NCBI GenBank assembly: GCA_009843735.1
Contig: VYCW01000118.1
Span: forward strand, 1-64,000
Length of the DNA stretch: 64,000 nt
Origin: Acidimicrobiaceae bacterium
GTDB taxonomy: Bacteria; Actinomycetota; Acidimicrobiia; Acidimicrobiales; Aldehydirespiratoraceae
Direction of reading: 5' to 3'
How positions within the stretch are numbered: the first letter of the stretch is position 1; each line of letters starts with the position of its first letter. Under the pieces are notes generated by a model. The model did no database searches. It worked only from the letters and a program-made list of their open reading frames with translations, and was not told the origin of the DNA. Of the stretch, positions 12,529 to 42,502 are shown piece by piece. Position numbers and translations under genes: made by a program.

Positions 12529-13989
12529 ATGGAACCGGTGTCCCGATCGGCGTGGTTGACGCTCGCGGTGGTGTCGGTGGCCGTGTTCATGGTCGCGATG
12601 GAACTCACGATCATCGCGCTGGCGCTGCCCGACATCCGCGCCGCGTTGTCGGGCACCACCCCGGCGGCGCTGTCGTGGGTGGTGAACGCGTACTCGATCG
12701 TGGTGGCGGCGCTGCTGCTGCTGTCGGGCTGGCTGGCCGACCGCTACGGCCGCCGCCGGGTCTTCCGCGCCGGGTTGATGGTGTTCGCGCTGGGCTCGGT
12801 GGCTGCGGGCGCCTCCACGAGCATCGAGATGCTGATTGCGGCCCGGGCCCTGCAGGCCATCGGCGGCTCCATGCAGTACCCCGCGGGAATGGCATTGCTG
12901 CTCGACGCCTTTCCCCGGAGCCGGCACCAAACCGCCATAGGTGTCTGGGGCGCAACGGGAGGGCTGGCCGCCGCGTTGGGGCCGGCCCTGGGAGCGGTAC
13001 TCATCGAGGCCTTCGGCTGGCGAGCCGTGTTCTATGTCAACGTGCCGGTAGCTCTGACCGCTCTGGTGGTCGGGGCCCGTGTGCTTCCCGAGAGCCTGGG
13101 CTCTCCCGCTCTTGTTCGCTCCGCTCGCGGGCCGCTCGGGCCCCGGGAGGCACCCGAGACCAGGGTGGACATGATCGGCGTGCCTCTGGCCTCGGTGGGC
13201 GTCGGCGCGGTCATCCTCGGAATCGTCCAGGGTGAGGCGTGGGGATGGGGATCGGCAGCCACTGTCGGCTCCTTCGTGATCGGAGCCCTGCTGGTGGCAG
13301 CCTTCGCCTGGCGGAGCCGGCGCCACCCCGCACCGCTGTTCGACCTCGACCTGCTTCGCATCCGTTCGTTCGTGCTCGGCAATGTCGGCTCGCTGTTCTT
13401 CGCCCTCGGCTTCTTCGCCCTGCTGGTGCCGCTCCCATCCTTCATCCAGGAAGTCTGGGGGTGGTCGGCGCTGGAGACCGGCCTCGCGTATTCGATAGGT
13501 CCTCTGGTGTCGTTCCTGGTCGCTCCGCAGGCCGGGCGGTTGGCCGACCGGATCGGCAACTCGCCCCTGCTCACCGTGGGATCGGCCTGCGGCGTGGCGG
13601 GGCTGTTGTGGCTCCTGTTCACAATCTCCACCGAGCCCTCGCTCGGCCGGCTCCTCGTCGCCACCGTGCTGGTGGGAGTGTCGGCCGGCACCGGCTTCTC
13701 GCAACTGGTGGGGGCGGCACTGCGCGACATCCCTCCGCAGCGCTACGCCATGGCCACGGCCGGTCGCACCACGTTCTTCCAGTTGTCGGTCGCGTTCGCC
13801 ATCGCGGTCGCGTTCGCCCTGATCGGTCGGCCGCCCAGCCCCGCCGCTGAGCTGGCCGCCTTCAAACGGGTGTGGGTGCTGTGCACCGGCGGGTACCTCT
13901 GCAATCTCGTGCTGTTCACCATCATCTACCCCCGCCGCCAGGTGTTGCCGGGGAAATGGTCTAGAGGCCGAGCGAATAGGCGGGCTTGA
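12529..13989 (+). CDS. MFS transporter, DHA2/EmrB-QacA type, containing an in-frame dispersed repeat copy
   Basis: 14-TM-like hydrophobicity; motif GWLADRYGRRRVFRAG; loop residues LGSPALVRSARGPLGPRE encoded by the repeat; C-terminus and stop lie inside a second repeat copy. Confidence 0.88.
   Translation: MEPVSRSAWLTLAVVSVAVFMVAMELTIIALALPDIRAALSGTTPAALSWVVNAYSIVVAALLLLSGWLADRYGRRRVFRAGLMVFALGSVAAGASTSIEMLIAARALQAIGGSMQYPAGMALLLDAFPRSRHQTAIGVWGATGGLAAALGPALGAVLIEAFGWRAVFYVNVPVALTALVVGARVLPESLGSPALVRSARGPLGPREAPETRVDMIGVPLASVGVGAVILGIVQGEAWGWGSAATVGSFVIGALLVAAFAWRSRRHPAPLFDLDLLRIRSFVLGNVGSLFFALGFFALLVPLPSFIQEVWGWSALETGLAYSIGPLVSFLVAPQAGRLADRIGNSPLLTVGSACGVAGLLWLLFTISTEPSLGRLLVATVLVGVSAGTGFSQLVGAALRDIPPQRYAMATAGRTTFFQLSVAFAIAVAFALIGRPPSPAAELAAFKRVWVLCTGGYLCNLVLFTIIYPRRQVLPGKWSRGRANRRA
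13103..13149 (-). repeat. Dispersed element core copy 1 (inside MFS CDS)
   Basis: Minus strand ctcccggggcccgagcggcccgcgagcggagcgaacaagagcgggag matches core gcccgagcggcccgtgagcgaagcgaacaagagcggga. Confidence 0.9.
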
Positions 13990-14054
13990 ACGGCTGGGAA
14001 CGAGCGAGGCCGTGGCCCGAGCGGCCCGTGAGCGGAGCGAACAAGAGCGGGAAA
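13964..14054 (+). repeat. Dispersed element copy 2, full length (51-nt left module + core); spans MFS stop codon
   Basis: gaggccgagcgaataggcgg...cgaggccgtggcccgagcggcccgtgagcggagcgaacaagagcggga. Confidence 0.9.
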
Positions 14055-14158
14055 CACCCCTTCTCGACATGAAGGACTCGCACCTACTTACGCGCCCTCT
14101 TAGGTGAGCGGCTAGTCCCTGGGCGGCATCCGTTGAGACATCTCGTAGGGTCACGGCC

Positions 14159-15454
14159 GTGAAGTTCGGGATCTTCTACGAGCACCAGCTTCCCCGGCCG
14201 TGGCACGACGGCGACGAGCAGCGGCTGTTCAACGAGGCACTCGAGCAGGTGGAGCTGGCCGACCGGCTCGGCTTCGACTACGCCTGGGAGGTAGAGCACC
14301 ACTTCCTGGAGGAGTACTCCCACTCGTCTGCGCCCGAGGTGTTCCTAGCCGCCTGCAGCCAGCGCACCTCCAGGATCCGGCTCGGTCACGGCATCGTGCT
14401 GATGCCTCCCGGCTACAACCATCCGGCCCGGGTCGCCGAGAGAATCTCCACCCTCGACCTGGTATCGGGCGGCCGGGTGGACTTCGGCACCGGCGAGTCG
14501 TCCTCGATCCTGGAGCTCGGGGGCTTCGGCGTCGACGTAGACAGCAAGCGCCCGGCCTGGCAGGAGGCCGTCGAGCAGTGCTGCAACATGATGGCCATGG
14601 ACCCCTACCCCGGCTATGACGGCGACTTCTTCTCGATGCCGTGCCGCAACGTGGTGCCCAAGCCGGTGCAGAAGCCCCATCCCCCGCTGTGGGTGGCCTG
14701 CTCGAACAGGGAGACGATCAAACTGGCCGCCAGGCTGGGCATGGGCGCGCTCACCTTCTCCTTCGTCGATCCCAGCGACGCGGCCGCATGGGTGCAGGAC
14801 TACTACCGGATCCTCGAGACCGAGTGCGTGCCCATCGGCCACGCCATCAACCCCAACATCGCCATGGTCACCGGGTTGTCGATCCACCCGGATCAGCTGG
14901 AGGCGAAGCGCAGGGGACTCGACGGCTTCCAGTTCTTCGGCTACGGCCTCGGCCACCACTACATCTTCGGCCGGCACAAGCCGGGCCGCACCGACATCTG
15001 GGCCGACTACCTGAAGGCCAGGCCCACGATCGAGGACCGGGGAGAACAGAGCGGCATCGGCACTCCCGAACAGGTCCGGGCGCACCTCCGCGGCTTCGCC
15101 GAGGCCGGCGTCGACCAGGTGGTGTTCATCCAGCAGGGAGGCAACAACCGCCACGACCACATCTGCGAGACTCTCGAACTGTTCGCGGCCGATGTGATGG
15201 GCGAGTTCGCCGAGGGCGAGCCGGAGCGGGACCGGGCCAAGCTGGACCGTCTGGCCCCGGCGCTGGACGCGGCCATGGCCCGCAAAGTGCCGATGCCGGC
15301 TCCGGCCGATGATGAGATCCCGGTGTTCGAGGCGCTGGGCCGGTCCATCGTGGCCGCACTGCCGGCCGAGGAGGCCTCTCAGGTGGCCGACACCGTGAAG
15401 CAATGGGCCAAGACCGACATGCCCATCCACGTGCCCGACGACTTCGGCACCTAA
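14159..15454 (+). CDS. LLM class flavin-dependent oxidoreductase (luciferase-like monooxygenase)
   Basis: MKFGIFYEHQLPRPW; RIRLGHGIVLMPPGYNHPARVAERISTLDLVSGGRVDFGTG. Confidence 0.92.
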   Translation: MKFGIFYEHQLPRPWHDGDEQRLFNEALEQVELADRLGFDYAWEVEHHFLEEYSHSSAPEVFLAACSQRTSRIRLGHGIVLMPPGYNHPARVAERISTLDLVSGGRVDFGTGESSSILELGGFGVDVDSKRPAWQEAVEQCCNMMAMDPYPGYDGDFFSMPCRNVVPKPVQKPHPPLWVACSNRETIKLAARLGMGALTFSFVDPSDAAAWVQDYYRILETECVPIGHAINPNIAMVTGLSIHPDQLEAKRRGLDGFQFFGYGLGHHYIFGRHKPGRTDIWADYLKARPTIEDRGEQSGIGTPEQVRAHLRGFAEAGVDQVVFIQQGGNNRHDHICETLELFAADVMGEFAEGEPERDRAKLDRLAPALDAAMARKVPMPAPADDEIPVFEALGRSIVAALPAEEASQVADTVKQWAKTDMPIHVPDDFGT

Positions 15455-15465
15455 CTACCGCTGGC

Positions 15466-16470
15466 TCAGCCGATGTCGCTGAGCCAGGCCCGCAACTGGG
15501 TGACGGTGGACGTCTCGTGCAGGCCGACCATCAGGGCGAGGCGGGCCTTGGGGCCGTTGAGGTGGCCGGCCCGCAGCACGCCGAGGTCGTCCAGGCTGGC
15601 GCCGCCGCCCGCGCCGCCGTAGGGCGACTCCGGTAGCCCGTAGGGGCACCTCGATGTCACTATCACTGGAAGGCCTGCGTCCACGAGGCGCGCGATTCCC
15701 GGCGCCACCGAGCTGGGAACGTTTCCCGCGCCGGTTCCCTCCACCACCAGGCCGTCTATGCCCCGGTCGAGATGCCAGTCGAAGACGTCGGCCTGCATGC
15801 CCGTGTAGGCCTTCACCAGCGGAACGGTGCCGCGGATGCCGCGGCCCCGGGGCGAGCTGGGCGAGTCGAGCACGAAGACGGGTTCGCCCGCTTGCATCGA
15901 ACCGACCGGGCCTCCCCTGACCGACTGGAACGTCTCCACATGGAGGGTGTTGAGCTTGGATACCCAGCTCGCACAGTGGATCCGGTCGTTCACGCTGAGC
16001 AGCACCCCCCGACCGCGGGCTGCCGTGCTCGTAGCGATGCGAACCGCGTTCAGGAGGTTCCGGGGACCGTCCGCACCCGACTCGGTGCTGGCCCGCATAG
16101 CGCACGCGAACACGATCGGGCCCTGAGCGGTCACCTCGGCAGCCAGCATCTCGCACATGTACATGGTCTCTTCGGTGGTGTCGGTGCCGTGGGTCACCAC
16201 CACCCCGTCAACCGCGCCGGCCAGGAGAAGCTCCCGGGAGCGCCGGGCAACCTCGACCATCCGCTCCGGCCCCATGTCGAAGCCGGACACGTTGCGCAGG
16301 GTCTCGGTCTGGATCGACGCGACCTGTTCCAACTCGGGCACGGAGGCAACCAGCTCCTCTGGCGTGAGTCCGGGCACCATCCGCCCGTCGGGACCGGTGA
16401 TGCAGGCGATGGTCCCGCCCGTCGCCAGCAGAGCCACCCGACGGCGATCGGTGGTTGCCGACCCGGTCAT
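15466..16470 (-). CDS. Asparaginase
   Basis: VALLATGGTIACITG and DGVVVTHGTDTTEETMYM active-site motifs; start refined to MTGSATT at 16470, ATGA overlap with upstream gene. Confidence 0.9.
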   Translation of the reverse strand: MTGSATTDRRRVALLATGGTIACITGPDGRMVPGLTPEELVASVPELEQVASIQTETLRNVSGFDMGPERMVEVARRSRELLLAGAVDGVVVTHGTDTTEETMYMCEMLAAEVTAQGPIVFACAMRASTESGADGPRNLLNAVRIATSTAARGRGVLLSVNDRIHCASWVSKLNTLHVETFQSVRGGPVGSMQAGEPVFVLDSPSSPRGRGIRGTVPLVKAYTGMQADVFDWHLDRGIDGLVVEGTGAGNVPSSVAPGIARLVDAGLPVIVTSRCPYGLPESPYGGAGGGASLDDLGVLRAGHLNGPKARLALMVGLHETSTVTQLRAWLSDIG

Positions 16471-26828: not shown

Positions 26829-26888
26829 TTGCGAGCGGGGAGGGCCCGAGCGGCCCGTGAGCGAAGCGAACAAGAGCGGGAATCAGGC
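26829..26888 (+). repeat. Dispersed element core copy 3 (between livF and SBP paralog 2)
   Basis: gcgagcggggagggcccgagcggcccgtgagcgaagcgaacaagagcgggaatcaggcc; lacks full left module. Confidence 0.9.
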
Positions 26889-38021: not shown

Positions 38022-38177
38022 GGGCGATCACCTCCCTACGGATCCGGCGCTGCCGGAGCCCCTCGACGGGGCAGGGTTCGTTGCTGGGCCGAACCGCCCG
38101 GAATCCGACAAGCGAGCCCGAACTGGATCAGCGAGTGGCCCGCAGGGTATCGGCGGTGCGGTCCATACCAACCGCCA

Positions 38178-38354
38178 GAGGCCGAGCGGGCGAGGCCCCG
38201 GGCCCGAGCGGCCCGTGAGCGAAGCGAACAAGAGCGGGAATCAGGCCGAGCGGGCGAGGCCCCGGGCCCGAGCGGCCCGTGAGCGAAGCGAACAAGAGCG
38301 GCGACATTGGCCGGAGCGGCCCTCAGGTCGCAGCAAACAAGAGCGGGAATCAGC
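38178..38354 (+). repeat. Dispersed element cluster: two tandem short-form copies (about 64-nt unit) plus one degenerate core (rpsF-panB intergenic)
   Basis: gaggccgagcgggcgaggccccgggcccgagcggcccgtgagcgaagcgaacaagagcgggaatcag, repeated from 38242; degenerate ggccggagcggccctcaggtcgcagcaaacaagagcgggaatcag from about 38309. Confidence 0.92.
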
Positions 38355-39362: not shown

Positions 39363-39935
39363 TTAGGCCGAGCGTCTGCCTCCAAGCGTGAAGCGGCGCA
39401 CGAGATGGTTCCATCCGCAGACGGTGCAGACCTCGACCACATACCCGGTCGAGACGCTGACCCGGTGCTGCAGCCGTTGAATCTCCGCCCGGGTCGTGAC
39501 GCAGCGTCCGTGCTTGGGCAGGCGCGACCCGAACACGTAGGTCACCTCGACCAGGCTCCCGCTCTTGTTCGCTTCGCTCACGGGCCGCTCGGGCCGTGCC
39601 TCCCGCTCGCCTTCGCTTCGCTCACGGGCCGCTCGGGCCCGGGGCCTCGCTCGTGCAGGCTGTTCGCGGCCGCCCATTCGCTCGGCCTCCCGGCCCTCCG
39701 GAGCGCCCTCGGAATCACAGACCGGACATGACCGGCCGGTCGGTTGCCCGCAGAACTCTGCGTTTCGCTGGAGCTCGCGCTGAGCGTCGCATACCTCGTG
39801 GCGGCCGAGTTGACCCGACCGCCAGGCCCTCAGCGTGGCCGCCCGGGCGAGCCGGTAGTCCACTGCCGCGGCCACCGGTTGGCCCGATGCGGCAGCCCGG
39901 CCGGCGGTGGCCAGCTTCGACGGACTCGGCTTCAC
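39363..39935 (-). CDS. DUF5318-like protein interrupted in-frame by dispersed repeat-encoded segment
   Basis: AAVDYRLARAATLRAWRSGQLGRHEVCDAQRELQRNAEFCGQPTGRSCPVCDSEG ... LVEVTYVFGSRLPKHGR...YVVEVCTVCGWNHLVRRFTLGG resembles actinobacterial DUF5318; repeat-encoded RARPRARAARERSEGEREARPERPVSEANKSG lies in the middle. Confidence 0.82.
   Translation of the reverse strand: MKPSPSKLATAGRAAASGQPVAAAVDYRLARAATLRAWRSGQLGRHEVCDAQRELQRNAEFCGQPTGRSCPVCDSEGAPEGREAERMGGREQPARARPRARAARERSEGEREARPERPVSEANKSGSLVEVTYVFGSRLPKHGRCVTTRAEIQRLQHRVSVSTGYVVEVCTVCGWNHLVRRFTLGGRRSA
39559..39689 (-). repeat. Dispersed element copies (one full-length copy with 51-nt left module plus an abutting second core) inside DUF5318 CDS
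   Basis: Minus strand gaggccgagcgaatgggcgg...cgaggccccgggcccgagcggcccgtgagcgaagcgaaggcgagcgggaggcacggcccgagcggcccgtgagcgaagcgaacaagagcgggag. Confidence 0.92.
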
Positions 39936-42204: not shown

Positions 42205-42320
42205 GGCCGGATCGTACCGCCCGCCCCCGACCCGATTCGGAGCTCGTGCCAGCGACGTATCGTTAATGGGACATGCCAGGACGACCTGTCGGCGGCCCAC
42301 GGAGCAGGCGCGCGGGCTCA

Positions 42321-42452
42321 GAGGCCGAGCCGATCGACCCGCGAATCGGCTTCATGCGGGCGAGGCCCCGGGCCCGAGCGGCCCGTGAGCGAAGCGAACA
42401 TGAGCGGGGACGGTGGCCCGAGCGGCCCGTGAGCGAAGCGAACAAGAGCGGG
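42321..42452 (+). repeat. Dispersed element: full-length copy plus second core copy (HDAC-GNAT divergent intergenic)
   Basis: gaggccgagccgatcgacccgcg...cgaggccccgggcccgagcggcccgtgagcgaagcgaacatgagcgggga then cggtggcccgagcggcccgtgagcgaagcgaacaagagcgggaa. Confidence 0.92.
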
Positions 42453-42502
42453 AATGGCACCCTTGCGGCCCGACCGGCGTGCATCGATCCGTGCGCGTTC
42501 CC

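Follow-up and report, generated by a model that had tools for sequence, protein, structure and literature searches.

A probable non-autonomous MITE-like repeat of an Acidimicrobiia genus, found in frame in a DUF5318 gene and in other conserved protein genes

Introduction

The bcr1-type repeats of Bacillus cereus are mobile, intergenic sequences of about 150 nt with pairing arms, and in-frame coding insertion is, to our knowledge, not their hallmark. As far as we know, translated in-frame selfish DNA is known chiefly from Rickettsia. Insertions of Rickettsia palindromic elements (RPEs) into unrelated metabolic genes make translational fusions, other RPE copies lie outside genes, and in-frame fusions are also known for some bacterial MITEs (PMC10969869).

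The repeat analysed here shares features with each of these systems. Like RPEs, it is a dispersed repeat of roughly 100-150 nt that lies in frame in unrelated genes. In contrast to them, it is not a strong palindrome, occurs in several forms and belongs to Actinomycetota; it is read in at least two frames of its sense strand and one of its antisense strand, whereas an RPE encodes one conserved peptide. Since it lacks the palindrome and comes from another phylum, we do not file it as an RPE and liken the two by function, not by sequence. With MITEs (ERIC, BOX, QMITE1, Correia) it has in common that it is short, high-copy, mobile and intergenic, encodes no protein of its own and bears imperfect terminal inverted repeats. 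It differs from them in that no parent insertion sequence was found and target-site duplication is not clear; MITE-like is the most fitting label.

The RAYT-moved REP/REPIN sequences are likewise high-copy short intergenic repeats with tandem or dimer arrangements. Unlike them, our repeat has no notable core hairpin, and Y1 transposase occurs in 0 of 16 same-genus genomes under a search that gave matches in five control genomes, so a RAYT/Y1 mobiliser was rejected. The bcr1 repeats, compared by description only, resemble it in size, mobility, intergenic sites and pairing arms. A literature search returned no description of this repeat family.

Results

The window, which is the whole 64,000-nt stretch of DNA analysed here and comes from the genome denoted G000, contains a DUF5318 gene with one copy of the repeat inside it. 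The features of this locus are as follows.

39363..39935, minus strand: DUF5318 protein gene with in-frame insert, 190 aa (Pfam, dN/dS, AlphaFold)
39555..39704, minus strand: insertion relative to the empty orthologues of G004, G013 and G001, 150 nt, 50 aa (orthologue alignment)
39559..39689, minus strand: mobile repeat copy of the dimer subfamily, about 131 nt, composed of the left arm GAGGCCGAGC...GCGAGGCCCCGGGCCC, core 1, core 2 and the end CAAGAGCGG
39612..39634, minus strand: core 1 (GAGCGGCCCGTGAGCGAAGCGAA), read ARAARERSE
39568..39590, minus strand: core 2, read PERPVSEANKSG

The sequence, strand and coordinates of the open reading frame are as the initial annotation described, and the DUF5318 assignment is confirmed by a Pfam profile match (PF17249, 95.7 bits, E 2.5e-27, against a curated cut-off of 31). 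The match is split into one stretch on each side of an Arg/Glu-rich tract, and the minus-strand protein runs from GRSCPVCDSEG through this tract to SLVEVTYVFG. The annotation had stated that such proteins pass directly from CPVC to VEVTYVFG. A class-wide search bears this out: in 35 of 37 homologues the linker is invariant, and the CPVC-to-VTYVFG spacing comprises four residues plus L/V-V-E or a near variant. The two linker-length exceptions are G010 (MAG SB0665_bin_5) and G008, the nearest sister species. Sister orthologues without the segment, which had been proposed as a check, do exist in G004, G013 and G001. Relative to these empty sites, the protein is longer by 50 aa in G000, 19 aa in G010 and 4 aa in G008, and other same-genus genomes add none. 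The corresponding alignment gaps are -150 against G001, -138 against G008 and -93 against G010.

The bounds of the element (39559-39689, about 131 nt) stand as annotated, while the estimate of about 45 added residues is replaced by the 50 aa seen against the empty orthologues (150 nt, 39555-39704). Almost the entire 50-aa insert is mobile repeat. The copy belongs to the dimer subfamily with CCCCGGGCCC ahead of the first core, a subfamily present at several other loci. As had been noted, its two cores are read in two different frames, giving ARAARERSE and PERPVSEANKSG; they are exact 23-nt copies, 44 nt apart. One of the three sense frames of the 131-nt copy is open, namely the frame that is used. 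The G010 insert has the two ends of the G000 insert but lacks 93 nt that lie there between two GAGC motifs. G010 carries a single-core version of the repeat at the same position.

For the sequence outside the insert, comparison with G010 gives a dN/dS of 0.06 (dS 0.22) and comparison with G008 one of 0.08 (dS 0.16), from which we conclude that the DUF5318 gene is under purifying selection. The reading frame has no stops and retains all cysteines, and it is intact in both G000 and G010. The AlphaFold model that the initial annotation had called for, built on an alignment of 38 natural sequences, predicts that the insert is a disordered loop in an intact DUF5318 fold: in 10-residue blocks the fold mostly reaches pLDDT 74-93, and residues 77-124, corresponding to the insert, form a disordered stretch with pLDDT below 50 inside it. 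Searching the PDB with this model gave no significant fold match. Because the frame is open and under selection, the insert is probably expressed, being translated as a disordered arginine/glutamate-rich loop.

On the basis of the aligned G000 copies, the 5' part of the repeat comprises the left arm AGAGGCC(GA or CC)GC..., a loop whose length varies from 0 to about 40 nt, and GCGAGGCC or GCGGGGCC. Downstream follow GTGGCCC or CCGGGCCC, the core and CAAGAGCGGGAA; in about a third to a half of the copies there is also a 3' arm, about 60 nt long, with an end resembling CACCTATCCGCGCACGCTCT. Full copies measure about 140 nt and have imperfect terminal inverted repeats; in one subfamily, 13 of 17 positions pair by eye between AGAGGCCGAGCGGATTG and the complement of CAATCCGCGCACGCTCT. 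Forms of about 45, 93, 140 and 180 nt occur. Long insertions are mostly of about 137-154 nt and short ones of 45-50 nt, the ends of short copies being approximate.

When partners were exchanged within genome group and subfamily, arms paired better with their own partner than with a swapped one (138 copies, p ~0.001; flank control p 0.7), and where one of the two left-arm subfamilies has G.A pairs, the other has C-G pairs. For 34 long copies RNAalifold found a weak consensus; the column-wise covariation signal came mainly from the two subfamilies and from misaligned arms, and the repeat matched no known RNA family in Rfam. A hairpin or palindrome at the core was rejected, as its folding on both strands is no better than chance (z -0.15 to 0.61 against shuffles). 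Meanwhile, multi-frame openness, which the initial annotation took for a property of the element, does not hold: 3.5 of 6 frames are open per copy against 4.0 in shuffles, the dimer copy has one of its three sense frames open, and the core carries a TGA in the third sense frame. The parallel that it drew with RPEs survives in part. A dispersed repeat does lie in frame in a conserved, selected gene and in several others; a strong palindrome (z ~0), frame openness beyond base composition and a preference for proteins do not apply, most copies being intergenic.

One class of copies has a left-arm loop of about 35-40 nt that is apparently unique to each copy, the remainder being conserved (L136, L140, L147, L149, L150, L164); L170, L175, L178, L185, L188 and L196 are further copies with an apparently copy-unique loop.

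Nine cores with at most 3 mismatches are present in the window and none in 100 dinucleotide shuffles, which excludes chance occurrence. The G000 genome holds 88 cores at no more than 2 mismatches, and a reversed control pattern gave 0. Cores occur in 15 of 16 same-genus genomes (12-274 in each), and the sister genus has 1 to 33. In a sample across the class they are confined to 6 of 296 genomes, G000 counted among the six. All genomes are metagenome assemblies (MAGs), 84-98% complete (G000 85%), and from isolate names those of the genus appear to derive from sponge microbiomes. We also notice a near-identical full-length copy in G197 (L311), a genome that belongs to a different order of the class, and a copy at the end of a contig in a relative, G228 (L310); these reflect either horizontal transfer or MAG contamination.

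The window was compared with the syntenic segments of five sister genomes at 92-94% identity. Besides the DUF5318 copy, the following features were compared.

13102..13146, minus strand, antisense and in frame: short copy in an MFS transporter gene, 45 nt, 15 aa
13963..14101, plus strand: full-length copy at the MFS gene end, about 139 nt, imperfect terminal inverted repeats
26840..26888, plus strand: short intergenic copy, about 49 nt, ends approximate
38175..38354, plus strand: intergenic tandem copy of two identical 59-nt units, about 180 nt, ends approximate
42320..42500, plus strand: intergenic dimer copy with 3' arm, about 187 nt, ends approximate

Clean empty sites in the sister species demonstrate that the repeat inserts. 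The 45-nt MFS copy is common to G000 and G010, and G001 has a 39-nt copy; it is missing, by exactly 45 nt, from G008 and G012 in the alignment and from G003 by gap size. G010 and G008 both lack the copy at 13963-14101. Near 14019, inside its span, G001 and G012 carry copies in the opposite orientation, which suggests independent hits. The short copy at 26840..26888 is shared by G010 and G008, and G001 and G012 lack it by 49 nt. The tandem copy (38206) is absent from G010 and represented by a single divergent unit in G008, and the dimer copy at 42320..42500 (42376) is absent from G010. One site fits a 2-nt TA target-site duplication and the others show none, giving no clear duplication overall.

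Two further observations concern the window. The 59-nt tandem units at 38179-38301 (D1 repeat family) are 100% identical, which marks a recent local duplication. At 15453-15466 there is a large indel, where G010 and G008 have 13-14 kb that the window lacks.

Gene context was taken from self-trained iterative gene calls with a coding fraction of 0.88. Among 80 elements of G000, about 72 are intergenic, 7 lie at gene edges and 1 is interior to a gene; the caller missed the DUF5318 gene and counted its copy as intergenic, which brings the actual interior figure to 2 or more. The 59 elements of G010 comprise 51 intergenic, 4 edge and 4 interior copies. Genic copies are thus strongly under-represented against a coding fraction of about 88%, as purging of most such insertions would lead one to expect. 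Many copies begin at a stop codon or provide one.

About six in-frame coding cases were found, DUF5318 included, in which the repeat adds 13 to 50 aa to otherwise conserved proteins. All six genes have orthologue alignments, and dN/dS refers to DUF5318. The cases come from inspected copies with the strict core pattern, the G000 copy in the class II ribonucleotide reductase (NrdJ) gene being outside that list, and under this pattern older, degenerate coding copies are under-counted. The MFS transporter gene (12568-13989, plus strand; Pfam MFS_1, E 1.3e-63) has its C-terminal end and stop supplanted in G000 by the downstream copy, giving the new tail RGRANRRA. In this one gene, both the insert in an internal loop and the new C-terminal tail thus derive from the element. 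An acyl-CoA dehydrogenase of G010 has a 15-aa insert that five orthologues lack. The NrdJ linker carries a short copy in G000, G008, G010 and G001, none in G012, and a long copy read in another frame in G013. An AlkB-like oxygenase has 31 aa (93 nt) in G010; at this site G013 keeps a remnant that consists of an arm only, and five others are empty. In Era of G009 and G015, an N-terminal segment contains cores, the start codons being uncertain. Across the coding copies, at least two sense frames and one antisense frame are read.

No parent insertion sequence or transposase was found for the repeat. Inspection of 190 nt at each of 20 matches to the element 5' end in G000, a genome 85% complete, showed no autonomous copy nearby. 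Carriage by viruses was rejected, as viral contigs had no match to the repeat.

Discussion

Our findings make it very probable that a non-autonomous MITE-like repeat is active in this Acidimicrobiia genus and that some of its insertions survive in frame, among them the DUF5318 copy, with the protein fold kept. Full (about 140 nt) and short (about 45-50 nt) copies would insert genome-wide, presumably through transposition by a trans-acting enzyme, and insertions within genes would mostly be purged. The surviving minority would be those with a frame-keeping length, read in a frame without the core TGA and placed in a permissive loop, linker or terminus; because the sites are of these kinds, the inserts are likely to be tolerated. 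In DUF5318, the element may have entered the ancestor of G000 and G010 after the CPVC zinc-knuckle-like motif, and in the G010 lineage it would later have shrunk through the in-frame loss of 93 nt between short GAGC repeats. Since both inserts share their left and right ends, we infer a single ancestral insertion followed by the G010 deletion as the simplest reading.

The long linker might instead have grown as an ordinary low-complexity loop, by tandem duplication or slippage and with no mobile insertion, and its Arg/Glu-rich composition, its two 44-nt units and its varying length among sisters would suit such growth. However, the tract holds the entire left arm and dimer core of a dispersed family that has clean empty sites elsewhere, and G010 has the single-core version at the same site. 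As linker slippage could not create the left arm, loop growth is largely refuted, and we regard it as extremely unlikely. It also seems highly improbable that the gene is decaying as a pseudogene and retains the insertion simply because its removal has yet to occur. Although an insertion adjoining the cysteine pair could disturb a metal site, the low dN/dS outside the insert (0.06-0.08 at dS 0.16-0.22 for the two nearest sisters) and the stop-free, cysteine-complete frame kept in G000 and G010 speak against decay.

The element might also be a structured functional RNA or a terminator kept between genes, its coding copies being rare accidents of spread. The preference of arms for their own partners, the exchange of G.A for C-G pairs between the left-arm subfamilies and the crowding of copies at intergenic sites, often starting from a stop codon, are in line with this. 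Yet arm pairing is equally expected from the terminal inverted repeats of subfamilies, core folding does not exceed that of shuffles, Rfam gives no match and presence differs among close species, so that we consider this explanation unlikely. That the peptides are useful to the host, and insertion into proteins favoured rather than only tolerated, could be argued from the NrdJ linker, where two element forms are read in two frames across sisters, and from the MFS loop and the AlkB loop (G010, G013), each occupied in more than one sister. Permissive sites explain such recurrence as well, however; the peptides from different frames and strands are unrelated, genic copies are strongly under-represented against the coding fraction of about 88%, and openness is not above shuffles. 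We find this very unlikely. Very little credence goes as well to a broader speculation, in which a structured mobile element of sponge co-residents, possibly passed between orders, would be a recurrent source of core-enzyme segments (ribonucleotide reductase, Era, AlkB-like, acyl-CoA dehydrogenase), some kept for function, and the copy-unique left-arm loops would point to RNA-guided or RNA-based movement.

With the MITE-like repeat as the preferred reading, a high-GC actinobacterial genus would harbour an unrelated family with the behaviour known from Rickettsia. Since one site has empty, short and long alleles among sister species, insertion, frame filtering, shrinkage and tolerance can be tested step by step, and the insertions in class II ribonucleotide reductase and Era offer a measure of what conserved proteins tolerate. 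Annotators of these MAGs should be aware that such protein segments are repeat-derived.

The G000 genome also contains about 15-18 core-less solo 5'-end stubs of about 20 nt (AGAGGCCGAGCGGATAGG, few mismatches), often located between a stop codon and the next start (L332, L333, L337, L338, L341, L342, L345 and others), which look like remnants of lost copies. At positions 1501 and 2024 of L328 (G000:C29), two inverted 5'-end motifs lie about 500 nt apart and possibly form a composite element.
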